A stretch of DNA of 37,117 nucleotides from Deltaproteobacteria bacterium (lineage in GTDB: Bacteria > Desulfobacterota > Dissulfuribacteria > Dissulfuribacterales > UBA3076), in contig JAGYNZ010000028.1 in the NCBI GenBank assembly GCA_018399745.1, forward strand, positions 1 through 37,117, read 5' to 3'. Of this stretch, positions 3,663 through 35,572 are shown in pieces (the stretch's first letter is position 1; every line of letters begins with the position of its first letter). The notes under the pieces are model-generated. The model searched no databases. It was given only the letters and a program-made list of their open reading frames with translations, and was not told where the DNA came from. The translations under genes were made by a program, and so were the position numbers.

Positions 3663-5030
3663 TTGAATCTTAACTCAAAAAAATATCTCGGCCAGATTAA
3701 AGAGGTCATCAAAAAGGCAGAAGCTGGCAAGGTCTATCCTGTCTATATGTTTATAGGTGACAGGCCTATTATCCATCCTCAAATAAATAAATTAATAGAT
3801 TGCCTTATTCCGAAAGAGGCAAAGGATTTCAACTTCGAGATTTTATCCCCTGATTCCTTTTCAGAGGGCAGGTTACTTGAGCTTCTGGGTACCCAGGGTT
3901 TTTTCCCGGGGCGTAAGGTTATTTTAATACAGGATCTGCCCTTACTGATATCTTCAGATACTGCAAAAACAAGATGGAAGAAGGCCCTGGCGGCCATTGA
4001 AGCAGATGATAATGATCGGGCAACAGAACTGATTTCACGGATCTTTTCTGATTTGAATATAGATCCGATGGAGCTTAAAGGGCTTTCTTCGGGACAGATA
4101 AAAGATGTTTTGAGCTGGCCCAAGGATTTAAGGATTGCGAGTTTATCAGAATTTCTTGAAGTTCATTGTGGAGACATAAAAACTGCAGAACCCATGAATA
4201 CCGGCTCAGGGAATCGTCTTCTTGTCTGGCTTGCTCAGAGGGCCGACCCGTCCCTTGCAATTATAATTCTCGAATCCGAGATAGTAGACAAAAAGTGTTC
4301 CCTGTACAAAGAATTAAAAAAATATGGGCCTGTAGTAGACCTGGATAAGGAAAAAAAAGACAGAAAAGGTGGGACAGATTTTGCTATTGGCCTTATCAGC
4401 GATCTAATAAGGGAAAGCGGAAAAAAAACAGATAACAAGGCCATTAAGGTTATTATGGATCGGGTCGGTCATAAAGACCCTGTAGGTCTGAAGACGGAGA
4501 TTCAGAAACTCGTAGCCCGGGCAGGAGACAGCGTCAGGATAACGGCCGAGGACGTCTGCGAACTGGTCGTAAGACACAGGGATGAAGAATTATATAACCT
4601 TACCAATGCTATTGGAGAAAAAGATCTGGGTAAATGCCTTAACAGCTTGAATTATTTACTAGATCAGGGAATCCATCCCCTCGCAATACTTAAGACCATT
4701 GCAAATTTTCTGCGTAAGATGATAATTTTGAGGGCTGTTTTTGAATACGGGGCAGGCATTAAGGGATTTAAGAACCTGCGATTTAAGATATTTAAAGATC
4801 GGATACTGCCTGAAATAAAAGAGAGCCTGGGAGATGATCAGCCTGATGTCTTGAAGGGACATCCATATAGACTTTACAAATTGAGCCTGCAGGCATATGG
4901 TTTTGATCTGGACAGGATGCTGGTTTTTCTGGCTTTACTGGCCGAAGCAGATCTTGAGTTCAAGGGAGGAAGGACTCCCCATAGGGTATTGTTGGAGACG
5001 CTTGTTTTTCGTTTTATTTCAATGGAGTGA
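3663..5030 (+). CDS. holA: DNA polymerase III delta subunit HolA (long form)
   Basis: Clamp-loader subunit that opens the sliding clamp during replication. The N-terminal segment (KVYPVYMFIGDRP) and the C-terminal region with ELYNLTNAIGEKD, LNYLLDQGIHPLAILKTIANFLRK and a final LLETLVFRF helix match the delta family. It has 455 residues, while typical HolA has about 340. The extra length appears as a helical insertion around residues 105-175 and another near 360-400. It starts at TTG, with AGGCAGGA about 10 bases upstream. Its stop overlaps the GTGA preceding the HD-domain gene, so the two are likely co-transcribed. The insertion between the AAA+-like domains makes this an atypical delta, but the C-terminal similarity is clear. 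Confidence 0.85.
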   Translation: MNLNSKKYLGQIKEVIKKAEAGKVYPVYMFIGDRPIIHPQINKLIDCLIPKEAKDFNFEILSPDSFSEGRLLELLGTQGFFPGRKVILIQDLPLLISSDTAKTRWKKALAAIEADDNDRATELISRIFSDLNIDPMELKGLSSGQIKDVLSWPKDLRIASLSEFLEVHCGDIKTAEPMNTGSGNRLLVWLAQRADPSLAIIILESEIVDKKCSLYKELKKYGPVVDLDKEKKDRKGGTDFAIGLISDLIRESGKKTDNKAIKVIMDRVGHKDPVGLKTEIQKLVARAGDSVRITAEDVCELVVRHRDEELYNLTNAIGEKDLGKCLNSLNYLLDQGIHPLAILKTIANFLRKMIILRAVFEYGAGIKGFKNLRFKIFKDRILPEIKESLGDDQPDVLKGHPYRLYKLSLQAYGFDLDRMLVFLALLAEADLEFKGGRTPHRVLLETLVFRFISME

Positions 5031-5032
5031 CA

Positions 5033-5617
5033 ATGGACGACAAAGAGACAAATTGGGAGGCAATAGCCCGTTTTCTTTTTGAGGGATCAATGCTTAAGCA
5101 TACGTGGCGAACGGGCTATCCGTTTCTGGGTAAAGGCAGAGAATCAGTAGCTGCCCACACCTTTGGTGTGATCCTGAGTGCCATGATGCTGGCAAGAAAT
5201 GTCCCGGGAGTAGATATGGAAAAACTCTTAAAACTATGCCTGGTGCATGATCTGCCCGAGGCCAGAACCGGCGACGCCAATGCAGTACACAAGCGGTATG
5301 TAATTATAGATGAAGAATCGGCAATAACAGATATGATTCAAGGACTCCCGGGCGGTGAAGAGATATCGGATCTGTTATCAGAGTTTAGAGACTGCAATAC
5401 CATAGAGTCAGTATTGGCCCATGACGCCGATAAGCTCGATATGCTGCTTTCTCTCAAAGAACATTTGGATACCGGAAGCAGTGATGCGGCGCTCTGGATA
5501 CCATATGTAAAAGAGAGATTAAAATCAGAAGGGGCCAAGACCCTTGCCAAAGCCATTTTAAAGGAACACTGGGCGAGTTGGTGGATGAGGCAATTGCTTG
5601 GAACCAATTTCAAATAA
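5033..5617 (+). CDS. HD-domain protein, YfbR/HDDC2-like 5'-deoxynucleotidase
   Basis: Metal-dependent phosphohydrolase of 194 residues. The HD-domain ligands can be read as H42, H72-D73 and D131 (HDADKLDML), with E76 following the HD pair. The context LVHDLPEARTGD is typical of the YfbR/HDDC2 group, which hydrolyses deoxynucleoside 5'-monophosphates. A tryptophan-arginine pair at 25-26 corresponds to the substrate-binding region of YfbR. A GTG at 5027 overlaps the holA stop, but the ATG at 5033 is better because GGAG lies 5 bases before it. The gene is followed after 12 bases by the selenoprotein gene, which suggests an operon. Substrate choice is inferred from the family. Confidence 0.85.
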   Translation: MDDKETNWEAIARFLFEGSMLKHTWRTGYPFLGKGRESVAAHTFGVILSAMMLARNVPGVDMEKLLKLCLVHDLPEARTGDANAVHKRYVIIDEESAITDMIQGLPGGEEISDLLSEFRDCNTIESVLAHDADKLDMLLSLKEHLDTGSSDAALWIPYVKERLKSEGAKTLAKAILKEHWASWWMRQLLGTNFK

Positions 5618-5629
5618 GGAGACATTTTT

Positions 5630-6784
5630 ATGAATAAGATCAAAAAAACAATGCTTTTTGTCTTATCTGTATTTTTTATATCCTCTTTTGCCGCCGACTC
5701 ATTATTGGCTGATAATCAGAAACCTACAAAGGAATTTACTCTGCTTTATACTGGAAATACCCTTGGCTACCTTGATCCTTGCAGGGCTTGAGGGGGGAAA
5801 GAGATCGGGGGAATGGCCCGGCGGGTCCGTTGGATCCGCGATAATGTTCAGAATAATGTTCAGAACCACGGCAACTTTCTTCTTTTAGACGCTGGTAATT
5901 TTCTTTTCAGAAATGAATCAGCGCCGTCAGAAGCGGCGCTTGCCAGTGCAAGGCTTCTTTTAGACTTTTACCGTGACATGAGTTACACAGCGCTTTGTGC
6001 GGGCAAAAGAGATCTTGCGGGCTCTATCATATTTTTGTCGAAAGAGGCTGACAAAAGGGGTTTGCGGCCCCTATCCTCAAACCTGCGTTACAAAGATAAG
6101 GCCGTATTTGAGCCCTACGCTATATTTGATGTTAATGGTATAAAAGTAGGCGTCCTTGCCATCACGTCTCCTGAATTGGATCAAAGGATAAAGGCAGATA
6201 ATGTAGATGTACTCGATCCTTCAGATCGGCTTAAGTTGTTGGTTCCTGAGCTTAAGAACAGAGTCGATGTAATAATATTGTTGTCTAATCTCAGTGAGTT
6301 TGAGGATAGAAAGCTGCTAAGCACTGTTGACGGCATAGATATTATTATCCAAAGCGGTCAGGGTAAACAGCTTTATCAACCGTTAAAAGTGGGAAATACT
6401 TACCTTTTGAGGGGTGATATAAAGGGGAGGTCAATAGGAAAATGTGTAGTAAAACTCAATTCACAGAAGGATGTACAGGGGCTGAATAATGAACTGCATC
6501 AGCTAAAGGCAAGTCTTCCTGTGGATAGAGCCGCAACAAGTAAAATAAAAGGGTTAAAACAGAAATACTCCAGCACCGAGGTCACCACTATTAGGCCTAG
6601 CGATCCTGCTAAAAATCCGTTCCTGGAAGCCATTGAAAAGGCAAAAAGAAATAAAATGAAGGGCGATAGCACCAAATCCCGTGATGGAAGCAATCCCTTG
6701 CTGGAAGCTATTGAAAAGGCAAAAAAGAACAAGGTAGAAGGTGGCCCATCTCAATCTGATAATTCCACAGATAATTTGTTTTAG
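5630..6784 (+). CDS. Exported UshA-like selenoprotein (in-frame UGA at codon 54)
   Basis: The frame runs from an ATG at 5630 (AAGGAGA ribosome site) to TAG at 6784 and gives 384 residues if TGA at 5789-5791 is read as selenocysteine. Residues 1-27 are a signal peptide. The region LLYTGNTLGYLDPC is followed by R-A-Sec, GG and GGMARR, resembling the N-terminus of UshA-like metallophosphatases whose relatives carry Cys at this spot. The fold continues with LLLDAGNFL, VGVLAITSPE and VGNTYLLRGDIKGRSIGK. The metal ligands appear lost: DxH is NTL, GD is GN, GNHE is GKRD, the histidine of SHL is asparagine, and the final HxH is QGK. Two 17-residue repeats end the protein. It lies between the HD-domain gene and the GlcF-like gene. 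A nonsense mutation is the alternative, with a short downstream start at 5813. The unchanged frame and the SECIS-like hairpin argue against it. Confidence 0.85.
5789..5831 (+). promoter_or_regulatory. Predicted bacterial SECIS element after the UGA codon
   Basis: The UGA codon is at 5789-5791. A hairpin begins 20 bases later: AATGG and CCC (5812-5819) pair with GGG and CCGTT (5823-5831). There is one T-G wobble, a single bulged T at 5826 and a three-base loop GGC at 5820-5822. The loop starts 28 bases after the UGA and its first two bases are G. Both properties fit the published bacterial SECIS pattern. The bulged U lies on the 3' side, unlike the E. coli fdhF element, where it lies on the 5' side. 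Confidence 0.7.
6614..6742 (+). repeat. Two-copy repeat in the selenoprotein C-terminus
   Basis: Two copies of a 17-residue unit, NP(F/L)LEAIEKAK followed by a basic NK(M/V)(K/E)G end, are encoded at 6614-6664 and 6692-6742, a period of 78 bases. The linker is polar. The unit is a short basic amphipathic helix, so it may be a binding or envelope-attachment tail. Confidence 0.85.
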
Positions 6785-6799: not shown

Positions 6800-8119
6800 A
6801 ATGATCTTCGAAAAAATGAAGGCCGTTTGGCTGATGACGCAATTGATGTTGTAAATAAATGTGTCAGTTGCGGCGCATGCCTCTCTGTGTGCCCGGTATA
6901 CGACGTTACCAGACACGAACGCCTGTCACCAAGGGGAAAATACAGACTCATAACGGAAATTATTGGCGAAGGTCTGAATTTTGTTTCAGAAGACAAAGAT
7001 CCTGAAAAAAAATTGCTTCCAGTCAAGGTGCATGAGACCTTACAGGGCTGTGTTCAGTGCGGAGCTTGCAGTCACGTATGTCCCGCCGGAGTAAAATTAG
7101 ATGCCCTGGTCAGAAATGCCAGGGGGGCAGACTGCACAAAAGGGCTTTCAACACCAAGGTGGTTATGGGATATCCTTAAAAGTCGCAGGCTGGCTCCCCT
7201 ACTGGCAAAGCTCGTCTCCGGTATCCCCGTCACAAGTGGCCTTATCTGGCGTTTGATAGGCCTTGAAGACCGTCGGACCTTAAAGGATGAAAAGGCCTTT
7301 CATTTTGAGATGCCTTCTCTTGCTCACAGGCCGGCCCTTTCGAGAAGGCATTTCAGATTGCTTGATCCGGGTCGTGTGATCGATCTCAGGCCGGGACCCA
7401 GAATAGCCCTTTTTCTGGGATGCATTCAGAACTATCTCTATCCTGAAGTAGCTGAGGCCATGATCCGGTGTTTCGGGGGCAGGGTTATGGTACCATTGGG
7501 ACAGGGGTGCTGTGGTATGCCTGCATGGTCGGCAGGTGCAGTGAAGACCGCTAAAGAACTTGCACTTCAAAACCTTGAGGCCCTTGAGACCGCAAAGGCG
7601 GATTTCATAGTTACAGGTTGTGCTGCCTGTGCCTCCATGATCAAGCAATGGTCAAAGTTGTTCAGTGAAAAGGAGACAGAAAAACAAATCGCCATCAATG
7701 TGGCAAACAAGGTCAGGGAATTCAGCCAGCTTGTCGTTGAGTTAAACGCATTACCTCTCAGATTGTCAGGGAATAGATCAGCCACAGTGACGTACCATGC
7801 TCCATGTCACCAACGATTTGATCTAGGCGGTGTCGTGGAAAGCGAAGGACTGCTGGACAGGTTGTTTTCAGATGCCTTTTGGCCTATGTCTCATGAATGC
7901 TGCGGACAGGGAGGGCTCTTTAGTATTGGAAATCCTGAGCTCGCCTGGAAAATTTTCGAAAAAAGGCTTTCGGCCTGGCACAGGACCGGTGCATCTATTG
8001 TAGTTACGACATGCTCTGGTTGTCTGCTGCAGTGGAGAGCGGGATCTGCTCATAAGACCGAAGGGCACAAGGTGCTACATTTGGCTGAACTTATTGATAA
8101 ATACTCTGATAAAACCTGA
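6797..8119 (+). CDS. GlcF/HdrD-like iron-sulfur oxidoreductase subunit
   Basis: Cytoplasmic Fe-S protein with two 4Fe-4S ferredoxin motifs near the N-terminus (CVSCGACLSVCP and CVQCGACSHVCP) and two CCG domains. The first has GCCGMPAW and CAACASM. The second has APCHQRF, ECCGQGG and CSGCLLQW. This is the architecture of GlcF, LutA/LldE-related proteins and HdrD-type subunits, which pass electrons from 2-hydroxyacid oxidation or handle disulfides. It has 440 residues from the proposed CTG start, or 430 from TTG at 6827. CTG is preferred on its ribosome site and because it extends the helix before the first cluster. No GlcD/FAD partner is in the window, so the substrate is open. It follows the selenoprotein gene by 12 bases. 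Confidence 0.85.
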   Translation: MNDLRKNEGRLADDAIDVVNKCVSCGACLSVCPVYDVTRHERLSPRGKYRLITEIIGEGLNFVSEDKDPEKKLLPVKVHETLQGCVQCGACSHVCPAGVKLDALVRNARGADCTKGLSTPRWLWDILKSRRLAPLLAKLVSGIPVTSGLIWRLIGLEDRRTLKDEKAFHFEMPSLAHRPALSRRHFRLLDPGRVIDLRPGPRIALFLGCIQNYLYPEVAEAMIRCFGGRVMVPLGQGCCGMPAWSAGAVKTAKELALQNLEALETAKADFIVTGCAACASMIKQWSKLFSEKETEKQIAINVANKVREFSQLVVELNALPLRLSGNRSATVTYHAPCHQRFDLGGVVESEGLLDRLFSDAFWPMSHECCGQGGLFSIGNPELAWKIFEKRLSAWHRTGASIVVTTCSGCLLQWRAGSAHKTEGHKVLHLAELIDKYSDKT

Positions 8120-32974: not shown

Positions 32975-35572
32975 CTAATAATAGAATTCTCCTAATGGCA
33001 GTATCCATCGGCTGTCAGGACCGTCGCTGTCTCCCCTGATAATCAACTCACAAGGAATACCTGGAGCGATGGGATCATCATCATACCAGGCGGTGATCCG
33101 GTAGTTGTGGGAATCAGTTAGCTCAATCACTTCCATTTCTCCCATGCAGGTACCCCAGTCGTCATACTCAGCGCTTAGTTCACCCAGGTCCTCTGAGGTC
33201 CCATCGTCCAAATCGTCGACCACGAGCCTGGCAGAATAGGCATCCACATGGCAATTTTGAACAAAAACTTGTCTGAAGCCCATAATCTCCGGTCCGTCTG
33301 CGCTAATTCTTGCCCGGACGCGCAGACTCTCGGTCGTTACCGGCGCCCCCTCACGGGCACAAGCCTCCAGGGTGAAGGTATGGGTTTCGTTGAGGGTGAT
33401 CTGGAAGCTGTCAGTTTCATGCCTGACGCAGTGAGCCGAGTATTCCCGGGACAAGACTTCACCCCGGATGTCCGAAGTGATAGTAATGTGACGGGCCTTG
33501 AATACCTCCCATTCCAGAGTCACAAGGGTGCCTTCCGGCCTGATCGTAATGGAATCGGGAGATGCCGCGAAGCGGACTATTTCCGCACGGCAGGCCCCGG
33601 AATCGCTTAACACATCAAGTATAGCAGGCTCACTCTCCAGGCTGTGACTGGTGACGTAGATCTGCCATAGACCGCAGGACAGATTATTGCCCTCCAGGTG
33701 CAGCAACTGATTGTGAACACGGTTTTCCGGTCGCTCGAAACTGATCCCGGTCACATCAAGCGTTCTCCAGGCATAGCCATCAGTTACCCTTACGGTGTTG
33801 GCATCGTACTCGATGTCAAAACTCGACCCTTCTAAGTCCAGAGTGAATGGACCGCATTCCATGACCTGCCGAAAGGAATCAGGATGATGAATGACAGGAA
33901 CGTCATATACCAGCAGCCTTATGGAACCCGATTCGTGATCGTCAGCATCGCCGCGGATGCCTGCTTCATATGTATGTTCTCCGGCAGTCACCGTAACCGT
34001 GACGCCCATTTCTCCTTCCGGAATTATGACCAGGCCAGGGACCTCTATCACATCATACACGCCGGTCGTATTGATCAGATTGATCGACAGACCCCCAGCC
34101 GGGGCAGGGCAGGATATGCTGGCATACAGGTCAACGGTGTGACCGACCCGCACCTGCGTTTCAACCACCGAAAGATGGACCGCCCGATAGGTCTCAACGA
34201 TCAACTCCCTGACAATACGGCCGCAGAAGCCGGATATCTCAAAGATATAGGTCTCATTTGCCGGCGTGTTAAGTCCCACCCCGCCGCTTATCCCCGGCCC
34301 CTCCTGTTCCCAAACAACAAAGCCGCTGCCGTCAGTGAGGACCGCCCGGTCAGCATTATCACCAGCAATGTATAAACTAAAGCTTTGGCATGCCTCCACC
34401 CGCACATGATCCTCCCCGATTACCTGGACAGAGCCGCTGACCCTGAATTCAGAAAGGATCACAGGTTCGGAGATCTCCAGATAGCGATCGGTGTCGCTGG
34501 CTGGAAGCCGGCTCATGCCCAAGCGGGAGCACTCTGGTATCCTAATCGGGATCTCGATGGTGATATTACCAGAACGCGTCCCCTCCGGGACCCTGCACCG
34601 GATAAGGCTGCTTGTACGGACAGTATACTCGGCTGGTGCATACCCGCCTGGAAAAACAACCAACGGCGCCCCACCAAAACCGCTGCCACTGATCTCTATA
34701 AGATCGCCCGCACAGGCCCTGCGGCTGATGGTCTCCTCATCTGTGGAGCGATCTATGTCGATGATCTCCTCTATCTCGTATCGCGGTTCGTTTCCAAGTT
34801 GCTTGAAACACTCCTCGGCATCACGGGTTGCCTGCCACTTCTCAAGTCGGCACAGATCCAAGGGTAATGGTCCTGGATTGCCGTACTTGAAGTAGAAATA
34901 ACCCGCTCCCTTCAAAGGCAGGCGCACCGTAGTGTCTTCCAGAAAAGCCAAGGCGGTGTCAAAGGACTCATATGTCACTGGGCCAGAGGCGTCGTGTACG
35001 GTCGTGGCTTCAGCGTAAAGGATTTCCAGAGCGGAGATTTCCTCTACCAATGTGCTGACCACCGCCAGGTATGGTCCGAAGCCCCCGGAGACCTCCTCCT
35101 CCAGTCTCAATACGCCAAAAACAATGTCGGAAATCGCTATGGGGCTGACAAAACAGGGCCAATTGTGGTGGCGTCCCCTGAATCCGCCTCCCGAAGGTCC
35201 GGGGCTTCCTCCCTCTGGGCCCCGGCTGCCCGACGCATCCGCCTGTGTCTGTTTTGCCACTGAACGGGAACCGGCGTGCATAGCCTCGGTTCTCTGAACC
35301 AGATAATTCAGCAGAGAAAGGAGACGATCGCCGGCCCGGGAGTCCCCCCTGAGGAAACCTCTGGAATGACAAAGGAGAAGAGACAGATGGGAAGCCCGTT
35401 CCAGCAGACGGTCGATCCGCTCTCGATAGGCTGCTTCCTTTGATCTCTCCCCGCCGGCAGCCAGCTCGGCAGCCCGATAGATGGCATTTATCCTTTCCTG
35501 ACACAAGATTTTTTCAAACCTGGTTGCTGTTCGCCCGATAACCCTTTTAGACTTTCGCATTTTACAGACCAT
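32975..35572 (-). CDS. Large TIG/Ig-like repeat protein of unknown function
   Basis: 865 residues, GC-rich relative to most of the window. Residues 1-100 are helical and arginine-rich. A glycine/proline/serine linker follows (about 108-135). A further helical part reaches about 260, and an IPT/TIG domain lies at about 288-345 (GDLIEISGSGFGGAPLVVFPGG, then LIRCRVPEGTRSGNITIEI). The remainder is a chain of beta-sandwich-like units with alternating hydrophobic strands, such as FTLDLEGSSFDIEYD, ITIRPEGTLVTLEWEVF and ITLNETHTFTLEACA. No signal peptide or membrane anchor is visible, which is odd for an Ig-rich protein. GAGGTG precedes the ATG. No close family is recognised. Confidence 0.7.
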   Translation of the reverse strand: MVCKMRKSKRVIGRTATRFEKILCQERINAIYRAAELAAGGERSKEAAYRERIDRLLERASHLSLLLCHSRGFLRGDSRAGDRLLSLLNYLVQRTEAMHAGSRSVAKQTQADASGSRGPEGGSPGPSGGGFRGRHHNWPCFVSPIAISDIVFGVLRLEEEVSGGFGPYLAVVSTLVEEISALEILYAEATTVHDASGPVTYESFDTALAFLEDTTVRLPLKGAGYFYFKYGNPGPLPLDLCRLEKWQATRDAEECFKQLGNEPRYEIEEIIDIDRSTDEETISRRACAGDLIEISGSGFGGAPLVVFPGGYAPAEYTVRTSSLIRCRVPEGTRSGNITIEIPIRIPECSRLGMSRLPASDTDRYLEISEPVILSEFRVSGSVQVIGEDHVRVEACQSFSLYIAGDNADRAVLTDGSGFVVWEQEGPGISGGVGLNTPANETYIFEISGFCGRIVRELIVETYRAVHLSVVETQVRVGHTVDLYASISCPAPAGGLSINLINTTGVYDVIEVPGLVIIPEGEMGVTVTVTAGEHTYEAGIRGDADDHESGSIRLLVYDVPVIHHPDSFRQVMECGPFTLDLEGSSFDIEYDANTVRVTDGYAWRTLDVTGISFERPENRVHNQLLHLEGNNLSCGLWQIYVTSHSLESEPAILDVLSDSGACRAEIVRFAASPDSITIRPEGTLVTLEWEVFKARHITITSDIRGEVLSREYSAHCVRHETDSFQITLNETHTFTLEACAREGAPVTTESLRVRARISADGPEIMGFRQVFVQNCHVDAYSARLVVDDLDDGTSEDLGELSAEYDDWGTCMGEMEVIELTDSHNYRITAWYDDDPIAPGIPCELIIRGDSDGPDSRWILPLGEFYY

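Follow-up and report, generated by a model that had tools for sequence, protein, structure and literature searches.

UshA-like selenoproteins are already known (PMC2398784, PMC9312934, PMC13188914) and have been listed since 2008 without an assigned function. The earlier note on the present locus had mentioned such a protein from marine metagenomes, and it can indeed be traced to previous work as the COG0737 UshA-like family of GOS (PMC2398784). Two curated models are available for these proteins: NF041198 (UshA_like_PCGU) and NF049981, which represents UshA-like family 2 with a CxxU motif (PMC13188914). UshA is not mentioned in the deep-Sep and 2016 ISME J papers, and in the open-licence literature we found no paper joining “metallophosphatase” with “selenocysteine”.

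The gene described here is located in the window (the whole stretch of 37,117 nucleotides that was analysed), and its features are collected in Table 1. The window protein resembles the NF041198/COG0737 proteins in the N-terminal domain (E 1.2e-52), in the place of selenocysteine (Sec) in the loop after beta strand 1, and in the replacement of Sec by Cys in some members. NF041198 is characterised by the CxU motif (PCGU), and its two tested passing members, L090 and L084, bear C-terminal haem-binding motifs (CxxCH), with a Cytochrome_C554 domain in L090, whereas the window protein possesses CxxU (C-R-A-U) and is haem-less, with neither a Pfam hit nor CxxCH. Several C-terminal CxxCH motifs each are present in the CxU/CxC UshA-like proteins L084, L090, L100, and L142. 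The window protein scores 179.3 bits against NF041198 (cut-off 275), its residues 25-348 being aligned to positions 13-338 of 519. With NF049981 it has the CxxU motif in common, but it remains below the cut-off of that model (86.5 bits vs 140) and matches NF041198 better. The branch, which has been little studied, lies outside both curated models and is of the already known UshA-like selenoprotein kind. Since it falls below both of them, annotation pipelines may truncate its genes at the UGA.

The best explanation of the data is an exported selenoprotein in which Cys51-x-x-Sec54 is placed on a metal-free nucleotidase/SoxB fold and which would act as an envelope redox protein; we assign to this reading a probability of about 0.85. 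As far as the open-licence literature shows, the new elements are the uncurated branch itself, the family-wide loss of metal ligands, the stricter retention of Sec than of Cys, and the Sec-specific hairpin.

Table 1. Features of the selenoprotein gene and its neighbours (positions in the window)
Feature	Position	Strand	Basis or remark
HD-domain phosphohydrolase (PF13023), upstream neighbour	5027..5617	+	adjoins the gene across the order
Shine-Dalgarno-like AAGGAG	5616..5621	+	8 nt upstream of ATG 5630; from sequence
CDS, UshA-like selenoprotein	5630..6784	+	384 residues, Sec at 54
N-terminal export signal, codons 1-28	5630..5713	+	approximate boundary; inferred from hydropathy of the window protein and 27 relatives
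5'-nucleotidase-type catalytic-domain fold, metal ligands absent	5732..6580	+	profile, predicted structure, alignment
Cys51 codon TGC, CxxU partner residue	5780..5782	+	absent in L038, L076, L077
TGA codon 54, almost certainly decoded as selenocysteine	5789..5791	+	conservation, Sec machinery, homologues, hairpins
4-bp hairpin CGGG[GGAATGG]CCCG, candidate SECIS	5806..5820	+	apical loop 18 nt past the UGA
8-bp hairpin GCGGGTCC[GTT]GGATCCGC, candidate SECIS	5821..5839	+	apical loop 37 nt past the UGA, -12.3 kcal/mol
Charged helical tail, repeated NPFLEAIEKAK / NPLLEAIEKAK	6581..6781	+	low model confidence
4Fe-4S/CCG-domain protein (GlcF/LdhH/HdrB-like), downstream neighbour	6827..8119	+	adjoins in part of the order

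Decoding of the UGA at codon 54

The frame from ATG 5630 to TAG 6782-6784 is interrupted only by the TGA, which is the 54th of 384 codons and is embedded in LDPC-R-A-(TGA)-GGKEIGGMARR; translation thus bears out the earlier description of a frame that is otherwise open. The mechanical ORF list begins the gene at 5813 (5813-6784), as had been predicted, and this start would indeed cost the protein its export signal, since ATG 5813 falls 3' of both the signal and beta strand 1. It corresponds to Met 62, where the relatives carry Ile or Leu (GGIARR/GGLARR) and Met otherwise occurs in L021 alone. Because Ile/Leu is nearly universal at this place, ATG 5813 is not a conserved start. The proposed signal peptide ahead of the TGA is also probable, as judged by hydropathy only: the hydrophobicity of the N-terminus is kept across the window protein and 27 relatives. 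In four within-genus comparisons, dN/dS was 0.18-0.44 ahead of the UGA (codons 30-53) and 0.21-0.32 behind it (codons 55-310), so that within the genus both sides are under similar purifying selection. None of the other read-through candidates in the window is gene-like.

The genes for Sec synthesis and insertion, sought in the genome by family searches, were all revealed above the cut-offs, in accordance with the check proposed earlier for selA, selB, selC, and selD. These comprise tRNA-Sec (74.5 bits) and, above the curated thresholds, SelA (607 bits), SelB (355 bits), and SelD (384 bits). The SelD gene (L042, G000:C2:62587-63513) has one in-frame TGA, so that the selenophosphate synthetase is probably a selenoprotein as well.

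Homologues were detected in 49 of the 60 related genomes searched, and in most cases the matched stretch contained a single TGA. In alignment A1, composed of 30 same-order members (the window protein plus 29 relatives whose identity to it ranges from 83 to 27%), TGA occupies the codon-54 column in every row, and it is also found in the same-order L076 and L077, so that all 32 order-level sequences read here have TGA. In the phylum sample, the family profile matched in 224 of 395 genomes, a few of these matches being true nucleotidases. Reading the column in about 110 matched proteins gave Sec in most cases and otherwise Cys in the equivalent motif (PCxxU vs PCxxC; PCGU vs PCGC). The expectation of Cys or Sec at this column was therefore correct for the homologues as a whole, but Cys is confined to distant branches while the close relatives have Sec. 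The nearest named loci belong to uncultured Deltaproteobacteria/Thermodesulfobacteriota genomes from metagenomes, and no relatives were found on viral contigs. The conserved TGA, the Sec machinery, the Cys/Sec homologues, and the known UshA-like selenoprotein group jointly uphold the selenoprotein reading of the earlier note, and we consider it almost certain that UGA codon 54 specifies selenocysteine.

According to the bSECIS model, the hairpin has a loop of 3-9 nt with G in the first two places, a stem of 4-16 bp, a UGA-to-loop distance of 16-37 nt, and an MFE of -7.5 kcal/mol or lower (PMC13188914). The 8-bp hairpin at 5821-5839 is within these values, its spacing of 37 nt being the largest that the model allows, and the hairpin at 5806-5820 occupies the usual position of the SECIS-like hairpin in most Sec genes of the family. 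For each gene, the best hairpin of bSECIS geometry (with loops of up to 14 nt) was scored against synonymous-codon shuffles. Values below -3 kcal/mol were reached by 74 of 82 Sec genes vs 7 of 24 Cys genes, and comparison with the shuffles, which do not keep local base composition, gave p ~1e-13 for the Sec genes and 0.97 for the Cys genes. A family-wide hairpin separates the Sec genes from the Cys genes. Many Sec genes have in common the form CTTGGC[GGTCTG]GCCAAG, located 18-19 nt past the UGA, and the stems vary yet stay matched.

On the alignment, which consists of related rows, the 8-bp hairpin shows two-sided changes at four pairs, with 79% of cells paired, and scores higher than the slid registers by almost all measures; this signal is partly imposed by the protein sequence R-V-R-W-I-R. 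The fold of the window past the UGA is not exceptional relative to dinucleotide shuffles (z -1.3). The RNAalifold consensus hairpin is weak because different lineages use different hairpins, and this variation between lineages also makes the covariation moderate. Either of the window hairpins, the 8-bp one at 37 nt or the 4-bp one at 18 nt, may be the SECIS element.

Two other readings of the codon have to be weighed against these data. If the TGA were a true stop, or the gene were broken, with its downstream part translated from ATG 5813, the coordinates given by ORF callers would be explained. However, all the order-level relatives read share the codon over a span of roughly 70% divergence in protein sequence, so that a true stop is already refuted by conservation; nearly all relatives lack Met at the supposed start, which falls past the first strand of the fold, and purifying selection acts on both sides of the UGA. 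Were UGA to specify Trp or some other standard residue, through an altered code or general read-through, the frame would equally be open, but none of the relatives read has Trp at the column, and homologues have Cys there. The full Sec machinery in the genome and the hairpins, which accompany Sec genes but not their Cys counterparts, argue in the same direction, and both alternatives appear to us extremely improbable.

Fold, metal site and proposed role

The AlphaFold2 model of the window protein (pLDDT 83) matches 5'-nucleotidase catalytic domains and SoxB with Foldseek E of 1e-19 to 1e-23 and with VIA Z ~32 (rmsd 2.3-2.7 A, ~277 residues), and the sequence profile picks up the same families as the structure search. 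The catalytic-domain fold is common to E. coli UshA and CD73 (Z ~32) and to the SoxB thiosulfohydrolase (Z 31.7), which is a di-manganese enzyme. The SoxB model TIGR04486 gives weak matches in 29 of the 30 A1 members; in contrast to SoxB, the present family has lost the metal ligands, and the score is 46.5 vs a cut-off of 550.

Seven UshA metal ligands (D41, H43, D84, N116, H217, H252, and the ligand at 254) were scored by alignment to E. coli UshA. All seven are present in UshA itself and in L112 and L114, true 5'-nucleotidases of the same phylum, while the window protein retains none and the clade of its order at most two. Among the 82 Sec members, 25 retain no ligand, 35 one, 11 two, nine three, and two four. 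The 5_nucleotid_C domain was not found in the window protein, although UshA shows it with the same library. Hence, the label “UshA-like” is appropriate for the fold only: unlike UshA and CD73, the window protein is devoid of the metal ligands and of the C-terminal domain that binds the nucleotide substrate, and it adds CxxU after motif I. As every UshA metal ligand is absent, a nucleotidase reading would be inappropriate.

In the model, Cys51 and Sec54 are placed in the loop between strand 1 and helix 1, and the end of strand 1 is the site of metal-ligand motif I in UshA. The sequences and the model suggest that the redox pair replaced the metal centre. Beyond the domain, the tail at 6581-6781 contains two near-copies of NPFLEAIEKAKxNK; similar repeats are found in L010, L016, L017, L020, L022, and L025 and are missing in others.

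We suggest that SelB and Sec-tRNA-Sec would decode the UGA with the help of a hairpin just 3' of it, and that the product would carry Cys51-x-x-Sec54 in the loop after metal-ligand motif I. As its scaffold it would use the catalytic (N-terminal) domain of the 5'-nucleotidase/SoxB fold, stripped of all metal ligands and of the C-terminal domain that binds nucleotides. Sec54 would be the reacting residue, assisted by Cys51 where present, for example, via a selenenylsulfide. We infer Sec insertion itself, export, and the redox chemistry from the above data. A nucleotidase fold that has no metal-binding residues and carries a Cys/Sec pair in the former active-site loop points to a probable redox function, and it is likely that the gene encodes an exported redox protein on this metal-free scaffold. 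An additional redox hint is provided by the NF041198-passing members with their C-terminal CxxCH.

CxxU and CxU with Cys counterparts are typical redox motifs, and Sec seldom evolves as a purely structural residue; both points speak against a selenoprotein in which CxxU binds metal or haem iron, or plays a structural part, instead of serving as a thiol/selenol redox catalyst. A non-catalytic CxxU would fit the loss of the partner Cys in 6 of the 82 Sec members, the c-type haems fused to sister families, and the omission of UshA-like proteins by the GOS authors from their list of families with clear Cys-based redox motifs (PMC2398784), and we regard it as unlikely. Even less probable, indeed hardly tenable, is a metal-dependent phosphoesterase merely tuned by Sec: it is suggested by the fold and the overall similarity to UshA, CD73, and SoxB, but it is opposed by the complete loss of the seven ligands and by the missing C-terminal domain, which is detected in UshA.

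For the preferred redox protein, an envelope sulfur compound or a protein disulfide may be guessed as the substrate by analogy, because of the closeness to SoxB and the haem fusions of the sister families. A broader scenario is conceivable, although we hold it as rather doubtful: a metallophosphatase fold would have turned into an exported selenium-based redox enzyme, losing its di-metal centre and gaining a Cys/Sec site within that same active-site loop, and would be represented across Desulfobacterota by forms that are haem-fused, haem-less, CxxU, CxU, or Sec-alone and that act on an envelope sulfur substrate akin to the one used by SoxB. With the fold kept, the ligands lost, and Sec stricter than Cys, the misleading “nucleotidase-like” label can be replaced by a testable redox hypothesis.

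Motif variants and gene neighbourhood

When the motif columns were left out of the tree, 33 rows formed a group with support 95; almost all of them come from the window's order, and all have Sec. Outside this group, the tree implies no fewer than 10 exchanges between Sec and Cys and no fewer than 5 between CxxU and CxU, these counts being rough because of the quick tree method and several long branches. The 82 Sec members include 45 with CxxU (L037 was reassigned to this type by hand from an upstream UGA), 31 with CxU, and 6 with Cys at neither place. The latter are L038, L076, L077, L119, L137, and L146 (e.g., RESKSU, EAVHSU, IADSGU), and the first three, belonging to the 33-row group, have retained Sec while the partner Cys is gone. 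Since Cys51 is lost in these three members of the order, an intramolecular Cys–Sec bond cannot be universal. As judged from the sequences read, Sec is kept in the window's order more strictly than the partner Cys, and no order member has lost it. A paralogue without both redox residues (DPSGRFRNPLGG) is represented by L105 (G153:C168), and the same genome has the Sec copy L120.

The gene order holA, HD-domain hydrolase, selenoprotein gene is conserved, followed in part of the order by the CCG/4Fe-4S protein and rlmE. In two genomes of the same genus (G002 and G007), the HD and Fe-S genes are adjacent and the selenoprotein gene is absent altogether. In G008, from the same family, they are adjacent as well, and only a distant homologue is found, elsewhere in the genome. 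The loci at which the Fe-S gene comes immediately after the HD gene are L154, L155, and L156 in G002, G007, and G008. We weighed a role shared with the HD and Fe-S genes but claim no functional link, since these two remain neighbours even in genomes that have no selenoprotein gene at this place. Loss of the Sec machinery was likewise rejected as the cause of the gene's absence in G002 and G007, SelB being present there. The selenoprotein gene can be dispensed with, and its distribution reflects loss or gain. Elsewhere in the window, an ORF of 865 residues on the minus strand (32975-35572) has stretches which by eye resemble IPT/TIG-type beta domains.
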